A DNA stretch of 64,000 nt from positions 62,001-126,000 of the forward strand of contig NZ_JAKSYI010000062.1 in NCBI RefSeq assembly GCF_022829285.1, read 5' to 3'. The notes below the pieces were generated by a model. It had not been told where the DNA came from and ran no database searches. It was given only the letters and a program-made list of their open reading frames with translations. Both the position numbers and the translations under genes were made by a program. Below, piece by piece: positions 3,666 through 64,000 of this stretch. Numbering within the stretch: position 1 is the stretch's first letter; each line of letters opens with the position of its first letter. This DNA comes from Methylobacterium sp. J-078. GTDB lineage: Bacteria; Pseudomonadota; Alphaproteobacteria; Rhizobiales; Beijerinckiaceae.

Positions 3666-4934
3666 TCAGCGGACGTCCGACAGGCGCAGGCCCGTGAACT
3701 GCCAGCGCTGGTGCGGATAGAAGAAGTTGCGGTAGCCCACCCGCGCATGACCCTGCGGCGTCGCCACCGAGGAGCCGCGCAGCACGAACTGGTTCGACAT
3801 GAACTTGCCGTTGTACTCGCCGAGCGCCCCGTCCACCGGCCGGTAGCCCGGATAGGCGGTGTAGGCGCTACGGGTCCATTGCCAGACGAGGCCGAAGGCA
3901 TCGGCGAGGCGATCCTCGCGAGCGGCCACTTCCCATTCGAACTCGGTCGGCAGGTCGCGCCCGGCCCAGCGCGCATAGGCGTCGGCCTCGTAGTAGCTGA
4001 TATGGGTGACGGGGAGCGCCGGATCGACGGCCCGGATGCCCGCGAGCGTCATGCTCGCCCAGTCTTCGCCCACGCGCCGCCAATAGCCCGGCGCGTCCCA
4101 GCCCTCGGCTTGCGCGGCGATCCAGCCGTCCGAGAGCCAGAGTTCGGGCCGCGCGTAGCCGCCGTCTGCCATGAAGGCGAGCCACTCGGCATTGGTGACC
4201 AGGGCGCGGTCGATGGTACCACCCTGGATCAGCACGTCGTGGCGGGGCGATTCGTTGTCGAACGAGAAGCCCTCGCCGGCATGACCGATCTGCGTGATGC
4301 CGCGTGCAAGCTCCGCCCGACCCGTGGCGCCCTGCGGCCGGGGAAAGCGCCAGTTCGGGTCGTAGGCGGGGCCGAGGGGGTTCTGCGCGAAGGCGTGCAG
4401 GATGTCGGTGATCAACAGTTCCTGGTGCTGCTGCTCGTGGTAGAGCCCGATTTCCAGGACCGGCAGGATCGCCTCGAGGGCGCTGGCCGAGGCCTGGCTC
4501 AGGAGAGCCTCGACGGCGCGGTCCACATGCGCCCGGTAGCCCGCGACCTCGTCCGCCGTCGGACGGGTGATGAGGCCCCGCATGATCCGCGGCTGACGGG
4601 GGCCGGCGGCGACGTAGTACGAGTTGAACAGGTAGTGCAGCCGCTCGTCGTAGATCGCGTAGCCCGGCAGGTGCTCGCGCAGGAGGAACTGCTCGAAGAA
4701 CCAGGTGGTGTGCGCCCGGTGCCACTTCGTCGGGCTCGCATCCGCCATCGACTGGACCTGCTGGTCCTCCGGCGACAGGGGGGCGGCGCGACGCTCCGTC
4801 TCGTCGCGCACGTGGCGGAAGGCGGCGATCCAGGCCGCCCGATCGACCGGGCGCGCGCCGAGCGGCGGGGGCGGGAAGGCCGCCCGGTCGGCCACCTCGT
4901 CACGGGTCTCGCGAAACGCTGCCGTCGCTGCCAT
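3666..4934 (-). CDS. egtB: Ergothioneine biosynthesis protein EgtB (iron-dependent sulfoxide synthase)
   Basis: Couples hercynine to a thiol donor (gamma-glutamylcysteine or cysteine) using iron and oxygen. The N-terminal DinB-like part has WHRAHTTWFFE and the HX3HXE metal motif in YHEQQHQE. The C-terminal part is a formylglycine-generating-enzyme-like fold ending in RVGYRNFF and TGLRLS. The frame is open further upstream, but the ATG at 4934 gives 422 residues, close to the usual EgtB size, and has a GGGAG site 10 bases upstream. An alternative ATG at 4952 lacks a clear site. Transcribed together with egtD. Confidence 0.92.
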   Translation of the reverse strand: MAATAAFRETRDEVADRAAFPPPPLGARPVDRAAWIAAFRHVRDETERRAAPLSPEDQQVQSMADASPTKWHRAHTTWFFEQFLLREHLPGYAIYDERLHYLFNSYYVAAGPRQPRIMRGLITRPTADEVAGYRAHVDRAVEALLSQASASALEAILPVLEIGLYHEQQHQELLITDILHAFAQNPLGPAYDPNWRFPRPQGATGRAELARGITQIGHAGEGFSFDNESPRHDVLIQGGTIDRALVTNAEWLAFMADGGYARPELWLSDGWIAAQAEGWDAPGYWRRVGEDWASMTLAGIRAVDPALPVTHISYYEADAYARWAGRDLPTEFEWEVAAREDRLADAFGLVWQWTRSAYTAYPGYRPVDGALGEYNGKFMSNQFVLRGSSVATPQGHARVGYRNFFYPHQRWQFTGLRLSDVR

Positions 4935-5154
4935 GGCGGCCACTCCCAACATCCATCGAGAGGGGGAGATATGGCTGCGCGGCCATTCGACAACCGAGGC
5001 CCGACCGGGCTCTTCGTCGCGACCACGCCACCCGCGACCGAACCGCGTCCTACGCGGCGGAACCGCGTCGCCTTTTTGCCGCCACGGTGAGATCGCCTTA
5101 ACCCTCCGGGGCCGACACTCCGCTTTCGACGCGGGGCAACCGGACCGGACTCGG

Positions 5155-6030
5155 ATGCGGATCGATCTCATGGCAGGAGCGACCACGGGCGCCGTGGCAC
5201 GCAAGCTGGCGCCGACGCCCACGATCCTGGTTTTCGATTCCGGGCTCGGCGGCCTCACGGTGCTGGAGCAGGTCCGGCGAGCCCGCCCGGACGCCGCCTA
5301 CGTCTACGCCGCCGACGACGCGGCCTTCCCGTATGGCCGCCTCTCGGAGCCCGTTCTGGTGGAGCGGGTGCTCACCGTCATGGAGCGCCTAATCGGCCTG
5401 CACGCCCCGGACCTCGTGGTGGTGGCCTGCAACACGGCTTCGACCCTGGTCCTGCCGGCGCTTCGCCAGCGCTTCGTCACCCCGTTCGTCGGCGTCGTGC
5501 CGCCGATCAAGCCGGCGGCGGAGGCCACGCGCTCGCGGGTGGTGAGCCTGCTGGCGACCCCCGGCACCGTGGCACGGGCCTATACGCACGAACTCGTGGA
5601 AACCTACGCGGGCGCCTGCGCCGTCACCCTGGTGGGTGCTCCGAACCTCGCCGGCTTCGCCGAGGCCGAACTGGCCGGCAGCCCGGTCGACGACGCGGCG
5701 CTCGCCCGCGAGATCGCGCCCTGCTTCGTCACCCTGGAAGACGGCCGGCGCACGGACGTGGTCTGCCTCGCCTGCACGCATTATCCGCTCCTGCTACCCC
5801 GCTTCCAGGCGCTCGCCCCCTGGCCGGTGACCTGGATCGACCCCGCCCCGGCCATCGCCCGGCGGGTGATCCAGCTCCTCGGCCCGGTCGATCGCAATGC
5901 CCCGGATGCCGCCCCGGTGTTCGGCGCCTTCACCGGCGGAGCCGGTCTGACCGCTCCGCTGCGGCGCTCCCTGGCCACGCGGGGCGTCGGCGGGATCGCG
6001 GTCGAGGCCATGCCGCTGGGCCTGCAATAG
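5155..6030 (+). CDS. murI: Glutamate racemase
   Basis: Interconverts L- and D-glutamate for peptidoglycan synthesis in the cytoplasm. The substrate motif FDSGLGGLTV follows a short N-terminal extension. The two catalytic cysteines lie in VVACNTAST and VCLACTHYPLL. The start is uncertain: ATG at 5155 gives 291 residues and ATG at 5170 gives 286. The open frame extends upstream of 5155, but family homology starts only around TILVFDSG. Divergent from egtB across about 220 bases. No strong ribosome-binding site decides the start. Confidence 0.93.
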   Translation: MRIDLMAGATTGAVARKLAPTPTILVFDSGLGGLTVLEQVRRARPDAAYVYAADDAAFPYGRLSEPVLVERVLTVMERLIGLHAPDLVVVACNTASTLVLPALRQRFVTPFVGVVPPIKPAAEATRSRVVSLLATPGTVARAYTHELVETYAGACAVTLVGAPNLAGFAEAELAGSPVDDAALAREIAPCFVTLEDGRRTDVVCLACTHYPLLLPRFQALAPWPVTWIDPAPAIARRVIQLLGPVDRNAPDAAPVFGAFTGGAGLTAPLRRSLATRGVGGIAVEAMPLGLQ

Positions 6031-6480
6031 CGGGCCCGATACAGGTCCACGGTTTCGATTTCCTCGGGGAGGGGACATCGGCGCAGGCAGGTAAATCGCC
6101 GGGGCGAACGAACCGGCCATGCCGTTCATCGGCGTCACGCGCCCGCGCTTCCGCTCCGTCCGCGTCCTGCCGGGCTTCGGGCTCCCAGGACATCCGGATC
6201 CGCAGCACGCGACGATGACCGACCGCGCGCCGCGCCTGACCCGTTCGGGGCCGATCCACCCGGCGGCGTCGGACCGTGCCGAGCCGGCTCGGCATTGACG
6301 CGGGGGCGGGCCTGCTCTAACGAAGCGCCGGTGACGGGGCTCCGACGAGGGGCCCCGACGCATTTTCAAGCGCACCCGTGGGCGGCCCTGTCCGTCCTGT
6401 CGCTCCGTCCCCGGCCCGAGCCGGCGGCGAAGAGAGGAGGGCGCGTTCCTCGACAGATCTCCATTGCGAGAGGAACCGCG
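6031..6480. other. Intergenic region murI-rpsD, 450 bases
   Basis: No supported gene. Short open frames on both strands have Arg/Pro-rich compositions typical of spurious high-GC frames and no ribosome-binding site. A candidate promoter for rpsD lies at 6295-6323, leaving a leader of roughly 150 nt. The stretch 6031-6290 shows nothing recognisable. Confidence 0.5.
6295..6323 (+). promoter_or_regulatory. Candidate sigma70-type promoter of rpsD
   Basis: TTGACG and TAACGA are separated by 17 bases, placing transcription start near 6330 and leaving a leader of about 150 nt before rpsD. In E. coli, S4 regulates its own operon. No specific structure for that was identified here. Confidence 0.4.
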
Positions 6481-7098
6481 ATGTCAAAACGCATTCAGGC
6501 GAAGCACAAGCTCGATCGCCGCATGGGCCAGAACATCTGGGGCCGCCCGAAGAGCCCCGTCAATCGCCGCGAGTACGGCCCCGGCCAGCACGGCCAGCGC
6601 CGCAAGGGCAAGATGTCCGACTTCGGCACCCAGCTGCGCGCCAAGCAGAAGCTCAAGGGCTACTACGCCAACATCACCGAGAAGCAGTTCCGCCGCTACT
6701 ACGCCGAGGCGATCCGCCTGCGCGGCGATTCCGGCGAGAACCTGATCGGCCTGCTGGAGCGCCGCCTCGACGCCGTCGTGTACCGCGCGAAGTTCGTGCC
6801 GACCCCGTTCGCGGCGCGTCAGTTCGTCAACCACGGGCACGTCAAGGTCAACGGCCAGCGCGTCAACATCGCCAGCTACCTCGTGAAGACGGGCGACCTG
6901 ATCGAGGTCAAGGATTCGTCCAAGCAGCTCGAGATCGTCGTCGTGGCCGCGCAGCTCCCCGAGCGCGACGTGCCGGACTACATCGAGGTGGATCACCAGA
7001 AGATGACGGCCCGCGTCACCCGCGTGCCGAACCTCGGCGAGGTTCCCTACCCGGTCCAGATGGAACCGAACCTGGTCATCGAGTTCTACTCGCGCTGA
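6481..7098 (+). CDS. rpsD: 30S ribosomal protein S4
   Basis: Primary 16S rRNA-binding protein of the small subunit. The 205 residues show the S4 N-terminal domain ([19 protein letters not shown]) and the S4 RNA-binding domain ([30 protein letters not shown]). The start is supported by GAGAGGA just upstream. It stands alone rather than in the alpha operon, as is usual in Rhizobiales, and is followed by its own terminator. Confidence 0.98.
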
Positions 7099-7126
7099 TC
7101 TTCAACGATCAGAGCCGACACGCAGG

Positions 7127-7155
7127 AGGGCCGCCCCGGGAGGGCGGCCCTTTTT
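7127..7155 (+). terminator. Rho-independent terminator of rpsD
   Basis: A 10-bp perfect stem (AGGGCCGCCC and its complement) with a 5-base loop runs into TTTTT, 28 bases after the rpsD stop. Confidence 0.9.
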
Positions 7156-7243
7156 CGTTGTCGCTCGGGGAAAGCCGCTCCCGGATCGCTCCGGCGGGCC
7201 GCAAGCCACGGGGAAAGCGGACGTCCAGTTCGCCGGGCGCCGC

Positions 7244-9403
7244 TCAGACCGAGCCGATGGTCCGGAGCCGGGCGCGGGGATGGATCTCGGCCTGGCTCAT
7301 CACCGGCGTCTCGCGGCGGAAGCGCTCGATGATGGAGCGCACGAAGGGCCGGGCCTGGACGGAGGTGACGAGCACCGGCATCTCGCCCATGCGGGCGGCG
7401 GCCTCGAAGCGGTCCCGCACCGTGTTGACGAATTCCGAGAGCTTGGAGGGCTGCATGGCGAGGTAACGCTCGTCGCGCTCGCCCGCGATCGATTCGAGGA
7501 AAGCCTGCTCCCAGGCCGGCGACAGCGTGATGATCGGCAGCATGCCGTCCGGCCCCTGGTACTGGGCGCAGATCTGGCGGCCGAGGCGGGCGCGGACGTG
7601 CTCGACGATGTCGCGCGGGTTCTTCACGTGGCCGGCCACCTCCGCGATGCCCTCGACGATCGACCCGAGATCGCGGATCGAGACCCGTTCGGCTAGCAGG
7701 AACTGCAGCACGCGCTGGATGCCCGTGGTGCCGATCTGGCTCGGCATGACTTCCTTGAGGAGTTCGCCGTGCTCCTTGGAGAGTTCGCGCAGGAGCTTCT
7801 GCACCTCGACATGGTTGAGAAGCTCGGAGACGTGCGCCTTGATGATCTCGGTGAGGTGCGTCGAGACCACGGTTGCGGCATCCACCACCGTGTAGCCCTT
7901 GAGCTGGGCCTGGTCGCGCAAGCTTGCGTCGATCCAGGTGGCGGGCAGACCGAAGGTCGGCTCCAGCATGTGCTGGCCGGGCAGCTGCACCTGCCCGCCC
8001 ATCGGGTCCATGGCCATGAACTGGCCGGGGAAGATCTGCCCCGTGCCGGCCTCGATCTCCTTCACCCGGACCACGTAGGCGTTGGCGTCGAGCTGCACGT
8101 TGTCGAGGATGCGCACGGAGGGCATGACGAAGCCGAGATCCGCCGCGAGCTGGCGGCGCAGGGCCTTGATCTGGTCGGTGAGCCGGTCCTGCCCCTCCGG
8201 TCCGTTGACCATGGCCAGCAGGGCGTAGCCCATCTCCAGCTTGAGGTCGTCGAGCTTGAGGAGGTCGGTGACGGTCTCCTCCTTCGCGGCCTGGGCGGCG
8301 GCGACCGCGGTGGCGTCCATCGGCGCGCCGTCGGCGTCGAGGGGAGGGGCGTCGCGGGCGACCTTAGCGAAGTGCCAGGCGGCGTAGCCCGAGGCCCCGG
8401 CGAGGCCCAGGAACGGCAGCATCGGCATGCCGGGCAGGAGCGCGATCAGCACCATGACGCCGGACGACATGCCGAGGGCCTTGGGGTAGTTCGCCAGCTG
8501 CTTGCCGAGCGCCTTGTCGGCCGAGCCCTTCACGCCCGCCTTCGACACGAGGATGCCGGCCGCCGTGGAGACGATGAGGGCGGGCACCTGGGAGGCCAGA
8601 CCGTCACCGATGGTGAGCAGCGTGTAGGTCTTGGCCGCCCCCATGAAGGGCATGCCCTGCTGGGCGACGCCGATGACGATGCCGCCGATCACGTTGATGA
8701 AGGTGATGAGCAGCGCCGCGACGGCGTCCCCGCGCACGAACTTCGAGGCACCGTCCATGGCGCCGAAGAACGAGGATTCCTCCTCGAGGGCCGCGCGGCG
8801 GGCTTTCGCCACCTTCTCGTCGATGAGCCCCGCCGAGAGGTCGGCGTCGATGGCCATCTGCTTGCCGGGCATCGCGTCGAGGGTGAAGCGGGCGGCCACC
8901 TCGGCGATGCGGCCCGAGCCCTTGGTGATGACCACGAAGTTCACGATGATCAGGATCGCGAACACGATGATCCCGATGACGAAGTTGCCGCCCATCACGA
9001 AGTTGCCGAAGGCCTCGATGACGTGGCCGGCGGCCGCCGTGCCCTCGTGCCCGTGGCCGAGGATGAGGCGGGTGGAGGCGAGGTTGAGGGCGAGGCGCAG
9101 CAGGGTCGCGACCAGCAGCAGGGTCGGGAAGACCGTGAACTCCAGCGGGTTGTCGATGAACAGCCCGGTCATCATGATCAGCACCGAGATGATGATCGAG
9201 ACCGCGAGCAATAGGTCGAGGAGAAACGCCGGCAGCGGGAAGATGAGCACCGTAAGGATGCCCATCACGGCGGTCGCGAAGAACAGGTCCGTGCGCTTGG
9301 ACAGCGCGTTCAGGTTCGCCCGGTTGGGGATCGCGAAGAGCGCGAACTGCCCGAACCCGGCGCCCGACCCCGCCGCGGGCGTGGCAACGGCAGTCTCGCT
9401 CAT
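7244..9403 (-). CDS. flhA: Flagellar biosynthesis protein FlhA
   Basis: Inner-membrane component of the flagellar type III export gate. The 719 residues fit the family. The N-terminal half has about eight hydrophobic helices, including LLRLALNLASTRLIL and the conserved cytoplasmic loop (GSGRIAEVAARFTLDAMPGK, QMAIDADLSAGLID). The C-terminal half is the cytosolic chaperone- and substrate-docking domain. The ATG at 9403 is preceded by GAGGA at a proper distance. An upstream in-frame start at 9442 is less likely. No other flagellar gene is in the window, so flhA is isolated from the main flagellar clusters. Confidence 0.96.
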   Translation of the reverse strand: MSETAVATPAAGSGAGFGQFALFAIPNRANLNALSKRTDLFFATAVMGILTVLIFPLPAFLLDLLLAVSIIISVLIMMTGLFIDNPLEFTVFPTLLLVATLLRLALNLASTRLILGHGHEGTAAAGHVIEAFGNFVMGGNFVIGIIVFAILIIVNFVVITKGSGRIAEVAARFTLDAMPGKQMAIDADLSAGLIDEKVAKARRAALEEESSFFGAMDGASKFVRGDAVAALLITFINVIGGIVIGVAQQGMPFMGAAKTYTLLTIGDGLASQVPALIVSTAAGILVSKAGVKGSADKALGKQLANYPKALGMSSGVMVLIALLPGMPMLPFLGLAGASGYAAWHFAKVARDAPPLDADGAPMDATAVAAAQAAKEETVTDLLKLDDLKLEMGYALLAMVNGPEGQDRLTDQIKALRRQLAADLGFVMPSVRILDNVQLDANAYVVRVKEIEAGTGQIFPGQFMAMDPMGGQVQLPGQHMLEPTFGLPATWIDASLRDQAQLKGYTVVDAATVVSTHLTEIIKAHVSELLNHVEVQKLLRELSKEHGELLKEVMPSQIGTTGIQRVLQFLLAERVSIRDLGSIVEGIAEVAGHVKNPRDIVEHVRARLGRQICAQYQGPDGMLPIITLSPAWEQAFLESIAGERDERYLAMQPSKLSEFVNTVRDRFEAAARMGEMPVLVTSVQARPFVRSIIERFRRETPVMSQAEIHPRARLRTIGSV

Positions 9404-55507: not shown

Positions 55508-56716
55508 TCAGGCGCGCGTCTCCGTGGCCCGCGCCGCCAGCCGGCGCCGGCCCTCCCGGGGCGCGAGGACAAGCACGAGGGCGCCGGCCAGCATGCAGGT
55601 CCCCGAGCCGATGAGAACCCCGACCTTCGTCGCCGTCTCGAGGTCGGGCCGCTCGGCGAAGGCCAGGAGCCCGATGAACAGGCTCATGGTGAAGCCGACG
55701 CCGCACAGGAGCGACAGCCCGAAGATCTGCCACCAGCCGGCACCTGCGGGGCGTTCCGCCAGCCCGAGCCGCACCGCCGCGAGGATGGCGCCGAAGACGC
55801 CGACCGGCTTGCCGACGAAGAGCCCGAGCGCCACCCCGAGGGTCACGGGCTCGAGAAGCATCCGGCTCGACAGGCCCGCCAGGGAGACGCCCGCATTGGC
55901 GAAGCCGAACACCGGCAGCACGAGGTAGGCCGACCAGGGATGGAGAGCGTGCTCGAGCCGGTGCAGGGGGGAAGCCGGATCGTCGGGCCGGGCCGGGCTC
56001 GGCCGCAGGGGGATCGTCAGGGCGAGGAGCACGCCCGCGATGGTGGCGTGGATGCCGGACCCGAGGACCAGGACCCAGAGCAGGGCCCCGAGCCCGAGAT
56101 AGGGCGACAGGCGGGTCACGCCGGCCCTGTTCAGCCCGACGAGGACGAGCAGCACGAGACCGGCGCCGCCGAGCATCGGCAGCGACAGGTCTGCGGTGTA
56201 GAACGCCGCGATGATGAGCACCGCGCCGAGATCGTCGAGGATGGCGAGCGCCGTCAGGAAGATCTTGAGCGAGACCGGGACGCGGGACCCCAGCAGGGTC
56301 AGCACGCCGAGGGCGAACGCGATGTCGGTGGCCGTGGGGATCGCCCAGCCGCGCAGGGTCTCGGGGGACGACCGGTTGACCGCGACGTAGACCAGGGCCG
56401 GCGCGAGCATGCCGCCGAGGGCCGCGATCCCCGGGAGGACCCGGTCGGGCCAGGTCCGCAGGCGGCCGTCGAGCACCTCGCGCTTGATTTCCAGGCCGAC
56501 CAGCAGGAAGAACAGCGCCATCAGGCCGTCGTTGATCCAATGCAGCACGCTGAGGCCGCCGACATGGGTCTTCAAGATCGTGGCATAGGCCTCCGACCAG
56601 CCGGAATTCGCCACCACCAGGGCGATCGCGGCGCTCGCCATGAGGATGAGGCCGGCGCTGGCGCCACTGGTGATCAGGCCGCGCAGGGCGGATGCGGGGC
56701 GGGCGAGGAAGGGCAT
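55508..56716 (-). CDS. nhaA: Na+/H+ antiporter NhaA
   Basis: 402-residue sodium/proton antiporter with 12 predicted helices. The ion-binding Asp pair lies in [50 protein letters not shown] and [13 protein letters not shown] are NhaA signatures. ATG at 56716 with GGAGA upstream. Convergent with the phosphatase gene. Acts in pH and sodium homeostasis. Confidence 0.95.
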
Positions 56717-56942
56717 CGGCACAGGTCTCCGCCGCTGGCGGCCCGACCAGCGCTGGCTCAACCTGCCGATCCAACCCTTCGGACCGCGCACCCGGGGCGA
56801 GCTATCGCATCGATGCGGGCCTCCCGCAATGCACACGGTCCCGGCGGACGGCACGATCCCCCCGGCAATCCCGACCCTGACCCGGCGAACCGGTCCACGC
56901 TGAGCGCAAGTCTCTCGGGCATCCCAATCGAATCCGCATCCC

Positions 56943-57142
56943 ATGCAGACCTACACCACCGCCGCCGGCCGCGACCAGATCCGCTACCACGACGCGATCT
57001 TCTTCGGCGCGGTGGGCGCGCCGGACGTGCCCGACCACATCATCCTCTGGGGCCTGCGGCTCGCCATCTGCCAGCCCTTCGACCAGTACACCAACGTGCG
57101 GCCGACCCGCATCCTGCCGGGGATCGTCGAGCCCCCCTTCGC
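56943..57142 (+). pseudogene. Fragment of a tartrate/isopropylmalate-dehydrogenase-like gene
   Basis: About 55 residues (YHDAIFFGAVGAPDVPDHII, LWGLRLAICQPFDQYTNVRP, TRILPGIVEPP) match the region of tartrate dehydrogenase/decarboxylase normally preceded by about 70 residues and followed by about 240. Both sides are missing: there is no matching N-terminal sequence upstream in any frame I could see, and the right side stops at the 3' end of the cysteine desulfurase gene (57143). A deletion remnant left when the neighbouring cassette arrived or by other loss. Confidence 0.75.
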
Positions 57143-59224
57143 TCATCGCCGCGGCAGGTTGTGCAGCGCCTTCAGGAAGGCGTCCACGTCCGCGCGGGTG
57201 TTGTAGAAGGCCAGCGAGGCCCGCACCGACTGGTCGACGCCGAAGCGGCGCAGGGCGGGGAGGGCGCAGTGATGCCCCGAGCGCACCGCGATGCCGCTCG
57301 CGTCGAGATGGTGGGCCACCGCCTCGTTCTCATGCCCGTCGATGACGAAGGACATCACGCTCGCCTTCTGCCGCGCGGTGCCGATCAGGCGCAGGCCCTT
57401 CACGTCGGTGAGGCCGGCCTGCGCGTAATCCAGCAAGTCGTGCTCGTAGGCGGCGATGCCGGGCAGGCCGACCCCTTCCAGGTAGTCGAGGGCGGCGCCG
57501 AGGCCGACCGCGCCGGCGATGTCGGGGGTGCCCGCCTCGAACTTCTCCGGTGCGCCCTTGTAGACGGTCTTCGCGAAGGTCACGTCCTCGATCATGTGGC
57601 CGCCGCCCTGCCAGGGCGGCATCGCCTCCAGGAGGTGCGTCTTGCCATAGAGGGCGCCGATGCCCGTTGGCCCGAACACCTTGTGGCCGGAGAAGACGAG
57701 GAAGTCGGCATCGAGCGTCTGCACGTCCAACGGAATGTGCGGCGAGGACTGCGCCGCATCCACCAGCACCGGCACGCCGTAGGCGTGGGACAGCGCGATG
57801 ATCTCCCGGACCGGGTTGATGGTGCCGAGGGCGTTGGCGACGTGGGTCACCGAGACGATCCTGGTGCGGCCCGAGAGCAGGGCGGCGAACTGCTCGAAGA
57901 TGATCTCGCCGCGGTCGTCCACCGGGATCACCCGCAGTGTCGCGCCCGTGGCCTGGGTCAGGAGCTGCCAGGGCACAATGTTGGCGTGGTGCTCGATCTG
58001 GCTGACGATGATCTCGTCGCCCGGACCGATGTTGGCGCGGCCATACGTGTTGGCCACGAGGTTGATCGCCTCCGTGGTACCGCGCAGGAAGACGATGTCG
58101 TCCTTCGAGGGCGCGTTGAGGAAGCGCCGGACCTTCTCGCGCCCGCCCTCGAACAGGTCGGTGGAGCGCGCCGCCAGGGTGTGGGCGGCCCTGTGAATGT
58201 TCGAGTTGTGGCGTGCGTAGAACTCGGACGTGGCGTCGATGACGCTCTGCGGCTTGTGGGTGGTGGCCGCGTTGTCGAGCCAAACCAAGGGGTGCCCGTT
58301 GACGCTCTGGTGGAGGGCCGGGAAGTCCTTGCGGACGCGCTCGACATCGAAGGGCGCCGCCACCGGGCTCGACCCGTGGGAGGTCACGCGCGGGGCCGGC
58401 CCGCCGTGTCGCGAGGGCTCGGCGCGCGGGGAAGCGTGCGGCTTCGAGGTGCGCCGGGACTGCGTCTGGGTGGAATCCGAGAGAAAATAGTAGTCGCCAG
58501 ACGCGGACGCCGCGTCGCTGCCCGCTTGCGCCGCGTGGACGGGCTCCCCCGAGAGATACCCCGTGCGCCGATAGTTTTCCTGGGCGACGTCCCCGCCGTG
58601 CTTCGACGGATCGGCCGGCACGAGGCTCGGTGCGATCGCGTGCGCGAAGGCGTTCGCGCGCGGATGGTCCTGCGCGATCGTCCGGTGGAGGTCACGGCCG
58701 CCGGGCAGGAAGGCGGCCACTTCCGGCACGGTGGGCACGAAGAATTCCGGCAGGCCGTGCCGGGCCGATAACGGGTCGGCGAGGGGATGGACCGAGGGGA
58801 TCGTCGCCGTATCGAGGAAGCCGGCGCCCGCCGGCGCGGGCGTTCCGCCGAACGGGTTGGCGGACGACGGCCCGGTCAGGCCCGGTAGCCCGACGCTCGG
58901 GCCACCGACGTTGCGCGCCCCGAGGGCCCTGCCGTCGGGCTGGAGGCCCGACGGCAGGGCGCCCGAGGGCGTGCCGATGGCGGCACCTGGCAGCGTGGGC
59001 TGCCCGGGGGCCTGGGGAAGGCTCTCCAGCGCCTGCGGAACCTGCGGCGCGGCCGGCAGCGCGGGAGCCAACGGCGCAGACGCCGCCTGGCCCTGTCCGT
59101 AGATCTCGCGGGCGAGGCGCCCGACGAGGTCGGCATGCGCCAAGGAACCGGCGGCGTCGCCGGCCGCGCCCGTGGGGAGGCCGAAACCGGACGAGCCCAA
59201 GACGCCGGCCTCAGGCGTAGTCAT
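57143..59224 (-). CDS. Family 2 encapsulin cargo: cysteine desulfurase with disordered N-terminus
   Basis: 693 residues. The N-terminal about 285 residues are Pro/Ala/Gly-rich and probably disordered, with short conserved patches such as ADLVGRLAREIYG, PLADPLSARHGLPEFFVPTV and SGDYYFLSD. This is the type of extension that targets the enzyme to encapsulin shells. The C-terminal 410 residues are a SufS-type PLP cysteine desulfurase: GHPLVWLDNAATTHKP, QIEHHANIVPW, PLP Lys in FSGHKVFGPTG, catalytic Cys in RSGHHCALPALRRFG. It removes sulfur from cysteine. Start overlaps the shell gene stop by 14 bases, implying coupled translation. Confidence 0.9.
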   Translation of the reverse strand: MTTPEAGVLGSSGFGLPTGAAGDAAGSLAHADLVGRLAREIYGQGQAASAPLAPALPAAPQVPQALESLPQAPGQPTLPGAAIGTPSGALPSGLQPDGRALGARNVGGPSVGLPGLTGPSSANPFGGTPAPAGAGFLDTATIPSVHPLADPLSARHGLPEFFVPTVPEVAAFLPGGRDLHRTIAQDHPRANAFAHAIAPSLVPADPSKHGGDVAQENYRRTGYLSGEPVHAAQAGSDAASASGDYYFLSDSTQTQSRRTSKPHASPRAEPSRHGGPAPRVTSHGSSPVAAPFDVERVRKDFPALHQSVNGHPLVWLDNAATTHKPQSVIDATSEFYARHNSNIHRAAHTLAARSTDLFEGGREKVRRFLNAPSKDDIVFLRGTTEAINLVANTYGRANIGPGDEIIVSQIEHHANIVPWQLLTQATGATLRVIPVDDRGEIIFEQFAALLSGRTRIVSVTHVANALGTINPVREIIALSHAYGVPVLVDAAQSSPHIPLDVQTLDADFLVFSGHKVFGPTGIGALYGKTHLLEAMPPWQGGGHMIEDVTFAKTVYKGAPEKFEAGTPDIAGAVGLGAALDYLEGVGLPGIAAYEHDLLDYAQAGLTDVKGLRLIGTARQKASVMSFVIDGHENEAVAHHLDASGIAVRSGHHCALPALRRFGVDQSVRASLAFYNTRADVDAFLKALHNLPRR

Positions 59225-60602
59225 GGTAGTTGCCCAGGAGCACGTTATCGAGGCGTGCGATGGCATCCTCCACCAGCACGGCGGCGGAGAAGTAGCGGGT
59301 CACGAGGTGCGAGGCGATGGAATGGTCGTTGGTGCCCATGTAGCGCACCGACAGGCCGGGCTCGATCTCGCCGGTGACGCCGGATTTCTGCAGGCCGACC
59401 ACACCCTGCTCGCCCTCGCCGACGCGCAGGAGCAGGATCGAGGTGGTTTGCGCCCCGGTGACCGGATCGGTGTCGATCGGCAGCTTGTCGCTCGGCACGA
59501 GCGGCACGCCGCGCCAAGTGATGAAGGGCGCGCCGAACAGGTGGATCACCACCGGGGGCACGCCGCGGCGGGTGGCTTCCCGGCCGAAGGCCGCGATGGC
59601 GCGGGGATGCGCCACGAAGAAGGCGGGCTTCTTCCAGACCAGCGTCAGCAGTTCGTCGAGGTCGTCCGGCGTGGGTGGGCCGCCACGGGTGGGGATGCGC
59701 TGGCGTCCGCCGACCTCGTTCAGCAGGCCGAATTCGGAGTTGTTCAGCAGCTCCCACTCTTCCCGCTCCTTCACGGCATCGACCGTGAGGCGGATCTGCT
59801 CACGCAGCTGGTCGATCTCGTTGGAGTAGAGGTCAGTGACGCGGGTGTGGGTGTTGAGGATCGTCTGGATCGTGGAGAGGTGGTACTCGCGCGGGTCGAT
59901 CTCGTAATCCACGAAGGTGGTGGGCAGGCGCGGCGCGCCGGTCTGCACCGCGAGCAGTTCGATGCCCTGCTCGCCGTGGCTGTTGGTGTGACCCCTCAGG
60001 CGATCACGCTCCTCGACATATTGCGCGATGCGGTTCTTGACGGCGTCGTCGTCCAGGGCCGCCCGGTCGAGGGTCAGCAGCGTGACGGCCGAGAGCGCCT
60101 TGACGGCGGGAGCGGGCTGCTCGGCGCCCGTGAGGGTGTCGTCGCCGAAGAAGTCGCCGCGGGTGGCGAGCCCCGAGCGCAGCCGGTTCTGGTACGGGCC
60201 GGACAGGGACAGCTCGACTGTGCCGTCGGCGACGATGGTCAGGCTGCGGTCGCCCGCGCCGCCGTCCGAGATCGTCTCGCCGGCTTTGTGCTTGCTCTCG
60301 GTGAACCGGTCGGCGAGGGCCGCGAGTTCGGCATCACCCAGCCGGCTGAACGGCGGAACGGCGCGCAAGGAAGCGGGGCTGATCGCGCGCGCCTTGTCGG
60401 CGCTGGCGAACGCGATGCGGCCGGGCTTGGCCAGCACGACCGCGCGCCGGTTCACGCGGTAGACGCCGCCATCCACGTTGACGAAAGGCAGGAGCCGCAG
60501 GAGCCAGCGCGGGGTGTTGGCGAGGTTCTGGACCGACGTGACGGTCGCCGTCGATAGATTGCGTGCTGCGGATGCGCCCACGCTCTGCCCCTGTCCGCTC
60601 AT
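59211..60602 (-). CDS. Family 2 encapsulin nanocompartment shell protein with cNMP-binding-like domain
   Basis: 463 residues. HK97-fold shell features match family 2 encapsulins (SrpI-related): TPRWLLRLLPFVNVDGGVYRV at the N-terminus; EIDPREYHLSTIQTILNTHTR, VTDLYSNEIDQLREQIRLTV, EEWELLNNSEFGLLN; and RYFSAAVLVEDAIARLDNV at the end. An insertion of about 110 residues near residues 80-195 (FSRLGDAELAALADRFTE, KAGETISDGGAGDRSLTIV, TRGDFFGDDTLTG) resembles a cyclic-nucleotide-binding domain, the hallmark of type 2B. It would assemble into a shell enclosing the desulfurase. GGAGA upstream of ATG. Confidence 0.9.
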   Translation of the reverse strand: MSGQGQSVGASAARNLSTATVTSVQNLANTPRWLLRLLPFVNVDGGVYRVNRRAVVLAKPGRIAFASADKARAISPASLRAVPPFSRLGDAELAALADRFTESKHKAGETISDGGAGDRSLTIVADGTVELSLSGPYQNRLRSGLATRGDFFGDDTLTGAEQPAPAVKALSAVTLLTLDRAALDDDAVKNRIAQYVEERDRLRGHTNSHGEQGIELLAVQTGAPRLPTTFVDYEIDPREYHLSTIQTILNTHTRVTDLYSNEIDQLREQIRLTVDAVKEREEWELLNNSEFGLLNEVGGRQRIPTRGGPPTPDDLDELLTLVWKKPAFFVAHPRAIAAFGREATRRGVPPVVIHLFGAPFITWRGVPLVPSDKLPIDTDPVTGAQTTSILLLRVGEGEQGVVGLQKSGVTGEIEPGLSVRYMGTNDHSIASHLVTRYFSAAVLVEDAIARLDNVLLGNYHDYA

Positions 60603-61065
60603 GGTTGGTCGTCTCCGTCTGGATCGTCGGGTGATGCCGTGCGCATCCGGCCGTGGATCGGCGCGAGCACAGTCGAGCGACTACGCATACGAGAATAGCG
60701 CAGCGGCGACCACGGCTAAGTCTTGTCATATCCGGAACGATTATTTGTACAGCGCCGGACGTGATGCGGTACTAACCGTGGCGGTGGGTCATCGTCAATG
60801 GAATAATTTTCCAAAGTTTAGGGCTTACTAGACGGACGTGCCCCAAAGCGCTTCGTATGCAAAATAGACTGCTTATAAGCTGGATAATTAGAGAAAACTG
60901 TTCTCCAAAGAGGGCGAACCGGAGAAACGGTTGGAACAATCTGGTCCGAGATCCACCGGCCCAGCAGAGGCTACCCGTGCACGCGGCAGGTCGCGAGGTT
61001 CGCCCGAGGATCGGAAGCCGGCTCCGCCAAAGCCCTCGGGGCCGTCCGTCCGGGCCCCGAACCCG
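60603..61065. other. Intergenic region cysE to encapsulin shell gene, 463 bases, partly AT-rich
   Basis: No gene is supported. It carries the shell promoter candidate at 60770-60798. The 60 bases at 60841-60900 contain 24 G+C, well below the genome level, and include A/T-rich tracts. An imperfect dyad (AACTGTTCTCC at about 60896 and GGAGAAACGGTT at about 60921) lies close to the cysE end. Confidence 0.5.
60770..60798 (-). promoter_or_regulatory. Candidate promoter of the encapsulin operon
   Basis: TTGACG and TTAGTA on the minus strand with a 17-base spacer, about 165 bases upstream of the shell ATG. The -35 match is good, the -10 match moderate. Confidence 0.4.
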
Positions 61066-61929
61066 TCAGATCCCGTCGCCGAAGAACTGGTCCATGGTCT
61101 GGGCGGGGTCCTCGGCGGCAGTGATTCGCGACACGACGCGGGCCGGCACCCCCGCCACGGTGGTATGGGCGGGCACGTCGTGCAGCACGACGGCCGCGGC
61201 AGCGACCTTCGCCCCCTCGCCGACCCGGATGTTGCCGAGCACCTTGGCGCCGACGCTGAGGAGCACGCCGCGCTCGATCTTCGGGTGGCGGTCACCGCTC
61301 TCCTTGCCGTTGCCCCCGAGGGTCACCGATTGCAGGATCGAGACGTCGTCGGCGATCACCGTGGTTTCGCCGATGACGACGCCGGTGGCGTGGTCGATGA
61401 AGACACCCGAGCCGATCCGCGCCGCCGGGTGGATGTCGGCGCCGAACACCTCGGAGATCCGGCTCTGGATGTGCAGCGCCAGGGTGGCCCGGCCCTGGTG
61501 CCAGAGCCAGTGCGCCACCCGGTAGCCCTCCAGGGCGGCGAGCCCCTTGTAGAACAGGAAGGGGTCGAGATAGCGCCGGCAGGTCGGGTCGCGCTCGCGG
61601 ATGGCCACGAGGTCGCGCACGGCGTGCTCGCCCGCATGCGGGTCGGCCTCGAAGGCCGAGAGGCAGAGGTCGCGGGTGGAGAGCCGCGCGAGGTCGCCGT
61701 CGCCAAGGCGATGGGCGAGGCGGTAGGCGAAGGCGTGGACCAGGCTCGGCTGGTCGAGCACCGTCGCCTGGATGATGCCGGCATAGAGCGGCTCCTCGAT
61801 GAGGGCCGCCTCCGCCTCGGCGCGCATCGCCCGCCAGACGTCGGAGCCGGCCGTGGTCTGGCTCACGCTGCGCAGGGGCGGGCGCAGGAGGTTGCTGGGA
61901 CCGCGCGAGGCCTGGCTGCCGGCGGTCAT
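61066..61929 (-). CDS. cysE: Serine O-acetyltransferase CysE (SrpH-like context)
   Basis: 287 residues. The N-terminal helical domain (SDVWRAMRAEAEAALIEEP, FAYRLAHRLG) is followed by left-handed beta-helix hexapeptide repeats (ADIHPAARIGSGVFIDHATG, VVIGETTVIADDVSILQSVT, LGGNGKESGDRHPKIERGVL). The last residue is Ile (GDGI), the tail that docks into cysteine synthase. It makes O-acetylserine for cysteine synthesis. Neighbouring the encapsulin/desulfurase genes it mirrors the srpGHI arrangement of Synechococcus, where the serine acetyltransferase is srpH. Confidence 0.94.
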   Translation of the reverse strand: MTAGSQASRGPSNLLRPPLRSVSQTTAGSDVWRAMRAEAEAALIEEPLYAGIIQATVLDQPSLVHAFAYRLAHRLGDGDLARLSTRDLCLSAFEADPHAGEHAVRDLVAIRERDPTCRRYLDPFLFYKGLAALEGYRVAHWLWHQGRATLALHIQSRISEVFGADIHPAARIGSGVFIDHATGVVIGETTVIADDVSILQSVTLGGNGKESGDRHPKIERGVLLSVGAKVLGNIRVGEGAKVAAAAVVLHDVPAHTTVAGVPARVVSRITAAEDPAQTMDQFFGDGI

Positions 61930-61983
61930 GCGGATCGGCTCATGCGGATCGCGAGGTCCGGGCGGCGCGCGGCGGCATCGGCC

Positions 61984-62175
61984 TCAACCGACGCGCTGGA
62001 AGAGGGCGGCGATGTAGCCCACGAGGAGGCCGTGTCCGTCGAACTGCACGTCCACGACCTGCGCCCCGTCCCGGGCCGGCAGGACGTCGACGATGCGTCC
62101 GGTGGCGTGGCGCCAGATCCCGAGGGCATCGGCCACGTCGAGCCGGGCGAACACAACCTGATCTCCGAGAACCAT
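61984..62175 (-). CDS. Small conserved-looking protein, 63 aa
   Basis: Encodes MVLGDQVVFARLDVADALGI, WRHATGRIVDVLPARDGAQV, and VDVQFDGHGLLVGYIAALFQ. The segment WRHATGRIVDVLPARDG and VDVQFDG suggests a small beta-barrel (SH3/SAF-like). GGAGAAAACG precedes the ATG. It ends 54 bases before the cysE start on the same strand, so it probably belongs to the same transcript. No family recognised; a link to the encapsulin or cysteine pathway is only positional. Confidence 0.6.
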   Translation of the reverse strand: MVLGDQVVFARLDVADALGIWRHATGRIVDVLPARDGAQVVDVQFDGHGLLVGYIAALFQRVG

Positions 62176-62423
62176 CGTTTTCTCCGGTCTGTACGTCGTC
62201 GCTCGAGGAGGGTGGCGAGGGAGTGCCGGTGGCGCGGTCCGGGGTCCGCAGACGGACCCTTGCGGGGCACGGACGGGAGCGCCGCGCCTCGGGGAAGTGT
62301 GCCGATCCGGGGCCTCCAGGGTCAATGAGAGCGGTTTCCAAAGATCGGCCGCCTGCGGGCACAGCCTTCCTCCCGGACGGGTCCCGGGAGCAGGCTTGTC
62401 CTGCGCGGGCGATTCCGGTTGGC

Positions 62424-62999
62424 TCAGCGCGCCGGCACCGGGATGTCGGGGCGCGCGTCACCGGTGAAGCCGTTCCGATTCGGCATCGCCACCGCCGGGA
62501 GCGTGCCTGCGTCCAGCACGGCGTCTTCCGGCAGGAGGCCGTTGAGGTGGAGGACGTAGGCGCTCAGGGCGTAGGTCTCGTCCGCGCCGAGGGATTGCGG
62601 CGCGTCGAAGGGCATGGCGCGGCGGATGTAGTCGAACAGGGTGGTGGCGTAGGGCCAGTAGCTGCCCACCGTCCGGACCGGCTTCGGTGTGGCGAGCGTG
62701 CCCTGGCCGCCGGCCAGCGCATCGGCGCTGCCGCCCTCGCCCTTCGCCCCGTGGCAGGCCGCGCAGCGCGCGCCGAACAGGGCGGCGCCGTCGCGGACGC
62801 TGCCGTGGCCCGGGGGCAGGCCCCGGCCGTCGGCCCGGACGTCGATGTCCCAGGCAGCGAGCACCTCGGGCGTGGCCGCGCGGCCGATCCCGAAGCGGGC
62901 CGTGCGTTCGTGCAGGCCTGTGGCGGGGCCGCCGGGATCGGCCAGGGCCGCGCCGGTCAGGACGAGGCAGGCGAGGGTTCCGAGGACGCTAACCCGCAT
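62424..62999 (-). CDS. soxD: SoxD-like cytochrome c (sulfane dehydrogenase electron acceptor)
   Basis: 191 residues. Signal peptide MRVSVLGTLACLVLTGAALA. One haem motif CAACH in GARCAACHGAKGEGG and a methionine-rich distal region (RRAMPFDAPQSLG). SoxD accepts electrons from SoxC during oxidation of sulfane sulfur on SoxYZ. The Paracoccus protein has two haem sites and is about twice as long; only one is present here. Starts 11 bases inside the soxC end; GGAGG lies before the ATG. No downstream Sox genes follow on this strand. Confidence 0.82.
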   Translation of the reverse strand: MRVSVLGTLACLVLTGAALADPGGPATGLHERTARFGIGRAATPEVLAAWDIDVRADGRGLPPGHGSVRDGAALFGARCAACHGAKGEGGSADALAGGQGTLATPKPVRTVGSYWPYATTLFDYIRRAMPFDAPQSLGADETYALSAYVLHLNGLLPEDAVLDAGTLPAVAMPNRNGFTGDARPDIPVPAR

Positions 63000-64000
63000 G
63001 GCTGACGCCTCCATCGGCGGCGACCCGCCAGCCGAACGTCGCGTTGTTGTGGTAGAAGGACTGGGTGCCCCGCACCGCGACCAGGGCGGCGCGGTCGGGC
63101 TGGACGTAGCCGGTCTCGTCGGTGGCGCGGCTGAGGAGTTGGGCCGGGCCACCCTCCCAGCGCCAGGGCAGCCGGAACCGGGTGAGGCAGCGCGGCAGGA
63201 CCGGACCCTCGAGGGTCGCCGCCTGCCAGCGGTCGCCCCCGTCCGTGGAGACCTCGACCCGGGCGATCCGACCCCGCCCGGTCCAGGCGAGGCCCCGGAT
63301 CTCGCGGAAGCCCGGCCCGCCCAGGCGCTCCCCGCCCGATGGCGTGGTGATGACGGATTTGGCCTCCATCACGAAGGTGAACTGCCGGGCCGTGCCGTCC
63401 GGCATCAGGTCGGTGTACTTCGCCGTCTCCTCGCGGGTCTGGAACGGCCGGTCCCCGACCTTGAGGCGGCGCAGCCACTTGACGCTGAGGTTGCCCTCCA
63501 CGCCCGGCACGAACAGCCGCAGGGGATAGCCCTGTTCCGGCCGCAGGCGCTCGCCGTTCTGGGCATAGGCCAGGATCGCCCCGTCGCGGGCGAGGTCGAG
63601 GGGAAGGCTGCGGCTCATTCCCGAGGCGTCGGCGCCCTCGGCGAGGATCCAGGCCGCGCCCGGCCTCACGCCGACCTCGTCGAGCAGGGTGGCGAGCTCG
63701 ACCCCGGTCCACTCGGAGCAGGAGAGCAGGCCGTGGCTCTCCTGCAGGGTCCAGGACGGCTTCGCCCCGAGCCAGGGCGTGTTGCCCGAGCATTCGAGGA
63801 AGTGGATGCGCGAGACGGCGGGCATCCGCAGAAGGTCGTCCATGGTCAGGACGAGGGGGCGCTCCACCAGACCGTGGATCGCCACCCGGTGCCGGTCCGG
63901 GTCGATCGCCGGCACGCCGGCATGGTGACGCTCGAAATGGAGGCCGTTCGGGGTTATGATCCCGTGCAGGTGCTGAAGCGGCGTGCCCGTCGAGGCCGCC
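62989..64000 (-). CDS. soxC: Sulfane dehydrogenase SoxC (partial, 5' end beyond window)
   Basis: Molybdopterin subunit of the SoxCD sulfane dehydrogenase in the periplasm. The frame is open to the right edge; the first visible residues TPLQHLHGIITPNGLHFERH are internal to SoxC. Molybdopterin cysteine in HFLECSGNTPW, WTGVELATLLDEVG, YPLRLFVPGVEGNLSVKWLR and the C-terminal dimerisation part (RGLAWTGRGRIARVEVSTDG). The paralogous sulfite dehydrogenase at 45063 has the same fold but a different partner. About 100 or more N-terminal residues and the rest of the sox cluster lie outside. Confidence 0.92.
   Translation of the reverse strand, partial: AASTGTPLQHLHGIITPNGLHFERHHAGVPAIDPDRHRVAIHGLVERPLVLTMDDLLRMPAVSRIHFLECSGNTPWLGAKPSWTLQESHGLLSCSEWTGVELATLLDEVGVRPGAAWILAEGADASGMSRSLPLDLARDGAILAYAQNGERLRPEQGYPLRLFVPGVEGNLSVKWLRRLKVGDRPFQTREETAKYTDLMPDGTARQFTFVMEAKSVITTPSGGERLGGPGFREIRGLAWTGRGRIARVEVSTDGGDRWQAATLEGPVLPRCLTRFRLPWRWEGGPAQLLSRATDETGYVQPDRAALVAVRGTQSFYHNNATFGWRVAADGGVSHAG

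Follow-up and report, generated by a model that had tools for sequence, protein, structure and literature searches.

What is encoded by a locus in which the gene of an encapsulin shell protein, bearing an inserted cyclic nucleotide (cNMP)-binding-like domain (CBD), runs directly into the gene of a cysteine desulfurase (CD)? Such a locus is found in Methylobacterium sp. J-078 (genome of 5.5 Mb), within the stretch of 64,000 nt of contig NZ_JAKSYI010000062.1 that we analysed and refer to as the window. Transcription runs along the minus strand in the order SMALL (a gene for a small protein), cysE, shell and CD (Table 1), and the gene set listed by an earlier sequence-only reading is thereby confirmed. 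We propose, with a probability of about 0.78, that a family 2B encapsulin forms here around a SufS-type CD to give a cysteine-fed sulfur nanocompartment, most of whose steps are carried over by analogy from the family 2A systems. This proposal draws on the family models, the counterparts of the 2A cargo motifs, the overlap of the shell and CD genes, the matching trees of the two proteins, the existence of a dedicated pair in the genome, the loading data available for 2A and a conserved upstream site. Family membership, the motifs, co-inheritance and the upstream site are supported by comparison of sequences.

We infer the assembly, the loading, the chemistry, the fate of the sulfur and the role of SMALL along the following lines. 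The shell protein would self-assemble around the SufS-type CD, which would enter the shell by means of a long N-terminus bearing counterparts of the two 2A cargo motifs. Cysteine would diffuse in and be converted by the CD into alanine and a persulfide, the sulfur being held or handed on, either inside or at the shell. Storage of sulfur in 2A shells is reportedly described in a Sci Adv article. The upstream cysE would provide O-acetylserine, so that cysteine could be made to feed the CD, and SMALL would be an accessory of this cysE/sulfur side rather than a part of the shell. The CBD would be a fast-evolving domain that has lost the classical cyclic-nucleotide pocket and that more probably plays a structural part or covers the pore, or binds another ligand.

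The shell protein reaches 567.6 bits against the 2B model NF041163 (cut-off 400) and 357.5 bits against PF19307 (cut-off 22.8), and it is matched by the 2B shells in PDB entries 9bje (E 8.2e-114) and 9bhu (E 9.7e-105). It also exceeds the cut-off of the 2A model NF041162, a model that covers the shared HK97 domain; the HK97 fold was assigned by sequence, the predicted structure model being poor in this domain. With the 2B model passed and an internal domain that does match the cNMP-binding fold, both the family and the fold put forward by the sequence-only reading hold. The genome contains one 2B shell above the cut-off, which rules out a two-component 2B shell encoded by two shell genes in one operon. 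Elsewhere, genome G840 shows two 2B shell matches (C43:41101-42300 and C207:450-1802), the second of which is incomplete at its N-terminal side and may be a paralogue or an assembly artefact. A very divergent 2B-like shell, 36% identical to that of the window and under the 2B cut-off, accompanies a desulfurase in locus L117 (G314, 4738-7622), whose host has a reduced genome of the same class (0.6 Mb, 88% complete).

The 14-base overlap between the shell and CD genes is real, as had been noted, and is open in 70 of the 78 loci measured among L007-L085. The same overlap is annotated in one Kitasatospora 2B-CD pair and in two Azospirillum 2A-CD pairs, so that it belongs to the module. The CD scores 813.6 bits against NF041166 (cut-off 800) and matches TIGR01979 as well; its match to solved desulfurases starts at residue 306 of the 707-residue open reading frame, that is at about residue 292 of the 693-residue protein, in agreement with the long N-terminus of cargo type proposed from sequence. 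The cargo motifs known from 2A are LARLANEFFS and AASPYYFLDG (PMC8049743). Their counterparts in the window are DLVGRLAREIY and DYYFL, and the corresponding patterns [DE]L[VI][GA]RLA[RN]EIY and [YF][YF][FYWL]L are found in 67 and 73, respectively, of 74 Methylobacterium sequences, a set that includes near-copies (its 73 loci give 69 distinct N-termini) and one wrongly placed start (L013). Bridging forms of motif 1 lead towards 2A, namely HTALISRLANELY in Xanthobacter (L068) and DTDLIARLAKEIF in Methylacidiphilales (L073), for which none of 500 shuffles scores as high; it is through these relatives that the window motif 1 is recognised at the sequence level. The motif 2 pattern recurs in 13/18 other 2B-CD cargos and 14/26 2A cargos. 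Neither pattern matches the actinobacterial 2B-CD cargos L120-L122 (Kitasatospora and Streptomyces plasmids; short N-termini), which may therefore use a different loading tag. Shell and CD form a dedicated pair: beside the single 2B shell, a separate SufS and a second cysE, each above its cut-off, are encoded elsewhere in the genome. Loading in a 2A system requires the N-terminal domain, and activity rises about sevenfold upon encapsulation (PMC8049743).

The locus survey retained 80 loci of 325 relatives, the closest shell being that of Methylobacterium sp. J-090 (99%). Shell identity is at least 83% in 68 of these loci (Methylobacterium, Methylorubrum and one metagenome-assembled genome, or MAG, labelled Beijerinckiaceae); the other 12 come from Xanthobacter, Aquabacter, Aureimonas, Chelatococcus, Acetobacter, Verrucomicrobiota, one MAG labelled Bacteroidetes and Oscillatoria. 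The CD catalytic domain is present in 79/80, the exception being cut by a contig end. In the shell-domain trees (52 and 50 rows, each with two PDB chains besides sequences thinned at 90% identity) the window shell groups with the 2B-CD shells of Alphaproteobacteria and Verrucomicrobiota, with support of 100/99, rising to 100/100 when two long-branch rows are removed. The starred groups of the smaller tree are 2A-CD, non-CD 2B, three actinobacterial 2B-CD shells, and the 2B-CD shells of Alphaproteobacteria and Verrucomicrobiota; with the two rows included, the 2A and 2B-CD labels need at least one extra change. The CD tree, built from 30 hand-picked cargos with an outgroup added (L126, L130 and L131, without the cutting motif, were dropped), recovers the 2B-CD lineage of the window at 100/100. 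Shell and cargo trees thus concur in setting a single 2B-CD lineage apart from both 2A and terpene-type 2B, the terpene label being based on the Pfam matches of the adjacent gene in L123, L124, L125, L132 and L133. A single clade of all 2B-CD shells is neither shown nor rejected (approximately unbiased test, p = 0.0885). Among 298 genomes of the host's own family, 74 have a match above the shell cut-off, 25 with the CBD form and 49 matching around the CBD without having it; the CBD form occurs in 22 of 25 genomes from the genus and in three from another genus. Although CBD-less shells do exist in other genera of the family, a recent insertion of the CBD into a local 2A shell is ruled out by the grouping of the window shell with 2B-CD shells of other Alphaproteobacteria and of Verrucomicrobiota.

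Upstream of the shell gene, 67 of 68 regions share the consensus AAAWW.RGAA.ATC.TTYYRTTGAC followed by TA 19 bases on, at 167-273 bases before the shell start. Because TTGAC, with extra weight for A/T and GAA-TTY, served to pick the site in each region, those columns are partly selected; TA at +24/+25 was not a selection criterion and is found in 66/67 at each position. The window element has 0 mismatches (60794-60815), and GAA-N5-TTYYRTTGAC-N17-20-TA has one exact match in the whole genome, at this very site (backward control, zero). It is this comparison of relatives, rather than a sigma-70 scan, that points to a promoter-like site, and the dyad touching its -35-like box resembles a binding site for an activator or a repressor. 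The weaker copy before SMALL-cysE exceeds the 99% level of shuffles in 13/65 upstream regions, mainly from near relatives of the window; a genus-wide operator shared with SMALL-cysE is not supported by such a count. In many Methylobacterium loci outside these near relatives a different stretch (AATTATCAAG...TTAGCGAA...ATGCTC) recurs before SMALL. No Rfam match above the gathering score indicates a riboswitch on the encapsulin genes, and an F6 small RNA inside the CD gene, at 29.3 of the 46 bits needed, was taken as chance.

Table 1. Features of the encapsulin locus, in window coordinates.
Feature	Position	Strand	Description
SMALL	61984..62175	-	63-aa protein, predicted SH3-like barrel
cysE	61066..61929	-	serine O-acetyltransferase, 287 aa; TIGR01172 above cut-off
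shell	59211..60602	-	family 2B encapsulin shell protein, 463 aa
CBD	59988..60395	-	cNMP-binding-like insertion, about residues 70-205 of shell
CD	57143..59224	-	cysteine desulfurase cargo (CyD type), 693 aa; start in 14-base overlap with shell gene
cargo motif 1	59099..59137	-	HADLVGRLAREIY, residues 30-42 of 693-aa CD
cargo motif 2	58481..58495	-	DYYFL, CD residues 244-248, precedes catalytic domain
promoter-like site and adjoining dyad	60773..60815	-	TTTGGAAAATTATTCCATTGAC ... TTA, about 170-215 bases before shell start
weaker copy of element	62321..62342	-	upstream of SMALL-cysE, 2 mismatches

Several observations weigh against the nanocompartment. A profile trained on 2A motif 1 misses the window motif, its best score lying elsewhere and being reached by 13/500 shuffles, and it beats at least 495 of 500 shuffles in only 8/19 other 2B-CD cargos. 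The sigma-70 consensus scan called no promoter, though the site contains TTGAC. The 2A knockouts of S. elongatus were without growth phenotype (PMC8049743), and the literature that we searched yielded no experiment on a 2B-CD shell. Finally, the proposed cargo dock of SrpI, F262/Y273, corresponds to Y421/H432 in the window shell and is therefore not that of 2A letter for letter. Tyr and His occupy the dock in 18/18 shells of the window lineage. Phe is found at the first position in 21/22 2A rows and 7/7 non-CD 2B rows (two PDB chains and five encoded next to a terpene synthase), with Tyr at the second position in the same numbers; the five remaining 2B-CD rows are mixed. Taken with the motif counterparts, this constancy suggests a loading tag that is 2A-like and a dock that has been altered with the lineage.

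The alternatives that survive best concern the CBD. The fold is retained and under selection, and PAPAVKAL stands in place of the phosphate-binding cassette, exact in 59/69 sequences of the genus set. Structure matches include trypanosome PKA regulatory subunits titled cAMP-independent, one of them titled as bound to guanosine (6hyq) and another, 6hyi, with a title ending at 'ino'; the mutant that 6h4g names in its title suggests that these subunits lack the arginine. The domain may thus bind some other small molecule, such as a nucleoside or a nucleotide of sulfur assimilation, and cover or open the two-fold pore with sulfur status, an idea that we hold only tentatively. A different ligand and a position above the two-fold pore have been suggested for the 2B CBD, its role being termed unclear (PMC12407261). 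Fast divergence between genera speaks against a single conserved ligand. In 11 lineage members from outside the genus the CBD is 20-49% identical to that of the window, compared with 72-81% for the shell domain. The ratio of nonsynonymous to synonymous substitution rates of the CBD is about three times that of the shell domain (21 hand-picked close pairs, counting only those with dS > 0.1). More ambitious, and in our view improbable, is a joint scheme in which the CBD would sense a sulfur-related metabolite and open the pores by sulfur status. In this scheme SMALL, as a regulator specific to the genus, would act on cysE or on the supply of O-acetylserine and couple cysteine synthesis to the store, while the dyad would place the store under the control of a dedicated sulfur regulator.

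The link with cysE, also proposed from sequence, is borne out: cysE lies in the shell locus and passes its family model, and 65/68 near-relative loci hold both SMALL and cysE, the three others being the Beijerinckiaceae MAG and two contigs on which the shell match is incomplete. Three Xanthobacteraceae loci have cysE directly upstream (72-74% identity). By name, SMALL is seen only in Methylobacteriaceae, barring the rows of one MAG. Compared with DUF1918 (PF08940), 6/31 members of SMALL match at E <= 1, the best at 0.0035, the window member giving no match. Across 111 genomes of the genus, SMALL occurs in 89 and the shell in 88 (both in 87, SMALL alone in two, the shell alone in one and neither in 21). 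The sequence-only reading had included SMALL in the particle, and as a minor shell or cargo component it would indeed be expected beside the shell, and 85 of the 87 genomes with both do have the two no more than 5 kb apart; we nevertheless consider this role highly doubtful, as SMALL has no match in the 12 loci outside the genus set, is kept in one locus from which most of the shell and CD genes are gone, and has copies with no shell nearby in six loci, which share a different neighbourhood. The locus in question is L144 (G826, 4919-6845), in which SMALL and cysE are open beside an N-terminal shell remnant of 81 residues and the last residues of the CD; judged by these remains, it is a natural loss of the compartment. 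In the other genome with SMALL alone (L150) the contig ends soon after cysE. The copies of SMALL away from a shell (L145-L149 and L151) share a locus with an NlpA/NIL-domain transporter, a metallophosphoesterase and a CitMHS-type transporter, as identified by a Pfam scan of L145.

That the shell is empty, or that the CD is a cytosolic neighbour rather than its cargo, is very unlikely: the dock residues do differ from 2A and loading itself is a prediction, but the CD passes the cargo model, carries both loading motifs, shares the overlap with the shell gene and has a tree that agrees with that of the shell. Equally remote is control by a cyclic nucleotide gating the pore or the cargo, as the sequence-only reading had supposed on the strength of the fold. 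A phosphate-binding cassette with conserved Glu and Arg defines cyclic-nucleotide binding, and the window CBD fails on both residues, with Asp at the Glu position and Pro at that of the anchoring Arg when aligned to PKG. R-[TS]-A was read by eye at the cassette place in 0/30 aligned 2B rows, the low identity of the CBD within the lineage and its raised substitution ratio argue in the same direction, and a related 2B CBD is stated in PMC12407261, at second hand through its reference 35, to bind no cyclic nucleotide.

Directly upstream of SMALL-cysE, the window holds genes for a cytochrome c and a SoxC-type sulfite dehydrogenase (62424-63915, minus strand; TIGR04555 above cut-off); SoxC occupies this position in L007, L008, L009, L011 and L012 among the 80 loci, all close relatives. 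On the other side, an nhaA-I RNA motif (Rfam RF03057, 49.9 bits for a gathering score of 37) at 56733-56793 on the minus strand falls in the 5' part of the longest nhaA open reading frame (55508-56944), so that nhaA probably begins, in truth, on the downstream side of the motif.

Through this locus the 2B-CD type gains a model in a common, plant-associated genus, with testable handles: the two loading motifs, the Tyr/His dock pair, a CBD devoid of its anchor, a SMALL linked to cysE and a site with which to fish for a regulator. Were the CBD to sense a metabolite, this would explain the domain whose role has been left unclear.

How does this locus compare with known systems? Nichols et al. tied CD to 2A shells without a CBD and terpenoid genes to 2B (PMC8049743). 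Andreas and Giessen (2021; PMC8346489) listed CD cargo in 1281 2A and 199 2B operons, the latter in nine phyla, with the CBD defining 2B, a disordered N-terminus of the cargo in 2B-CD encapsulins, and, among accessory genes, the strongest enrichment for serine O-acetyltransferases and rhodaneses; they also suggested cNMP regulation. The combination of a 2B shell with CD cargo, taken as new by the sequence-only reading, is therefore already in print, as are the cysE link and the idea of regulation by cNMP, and the published 2B-CD type shares the CBD-bearing shell, the CD cargo and the serine O-acetyltransferase accessory with the window, with nothing essential different. SMALL and the upstream site are absent from its 2B-CD account, in the main text of which 'methylo' occurs 0 times. 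The SrpI-CyD system of Synechococcus elongatus (2A; PMC8049743; L126) likewise has a two-motif CD N-terminus, an epsC-type serine acetyltransferase upstream and the shell followed by the cargo; it differs in having no CBD, in a shell domain 56% identical to that of the window and in its dock, and its locus adjoins cysK and a rhodanese-domain gene (rhodanese was not sought beside the window genes). The Streptomyces griseus 2B shell 9bhu shares the two-domain architecture over window residues 6-459, but groups with terpene-type 2B (53% identity in the shell domain, 27% in the CBD). In the S. lydicus 2B shells 9bje and 9bix (PMC12407261) the CBD sits in the E-loop, as in the window, with two shell genes compared with one in the window genome. 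Set against these systems, what appears to be new here is the presence of 2A motif counterparts in a 2B cargo, a lineage with fixed dock substitutions, SMALL, and a candidate promoter with its dyad.

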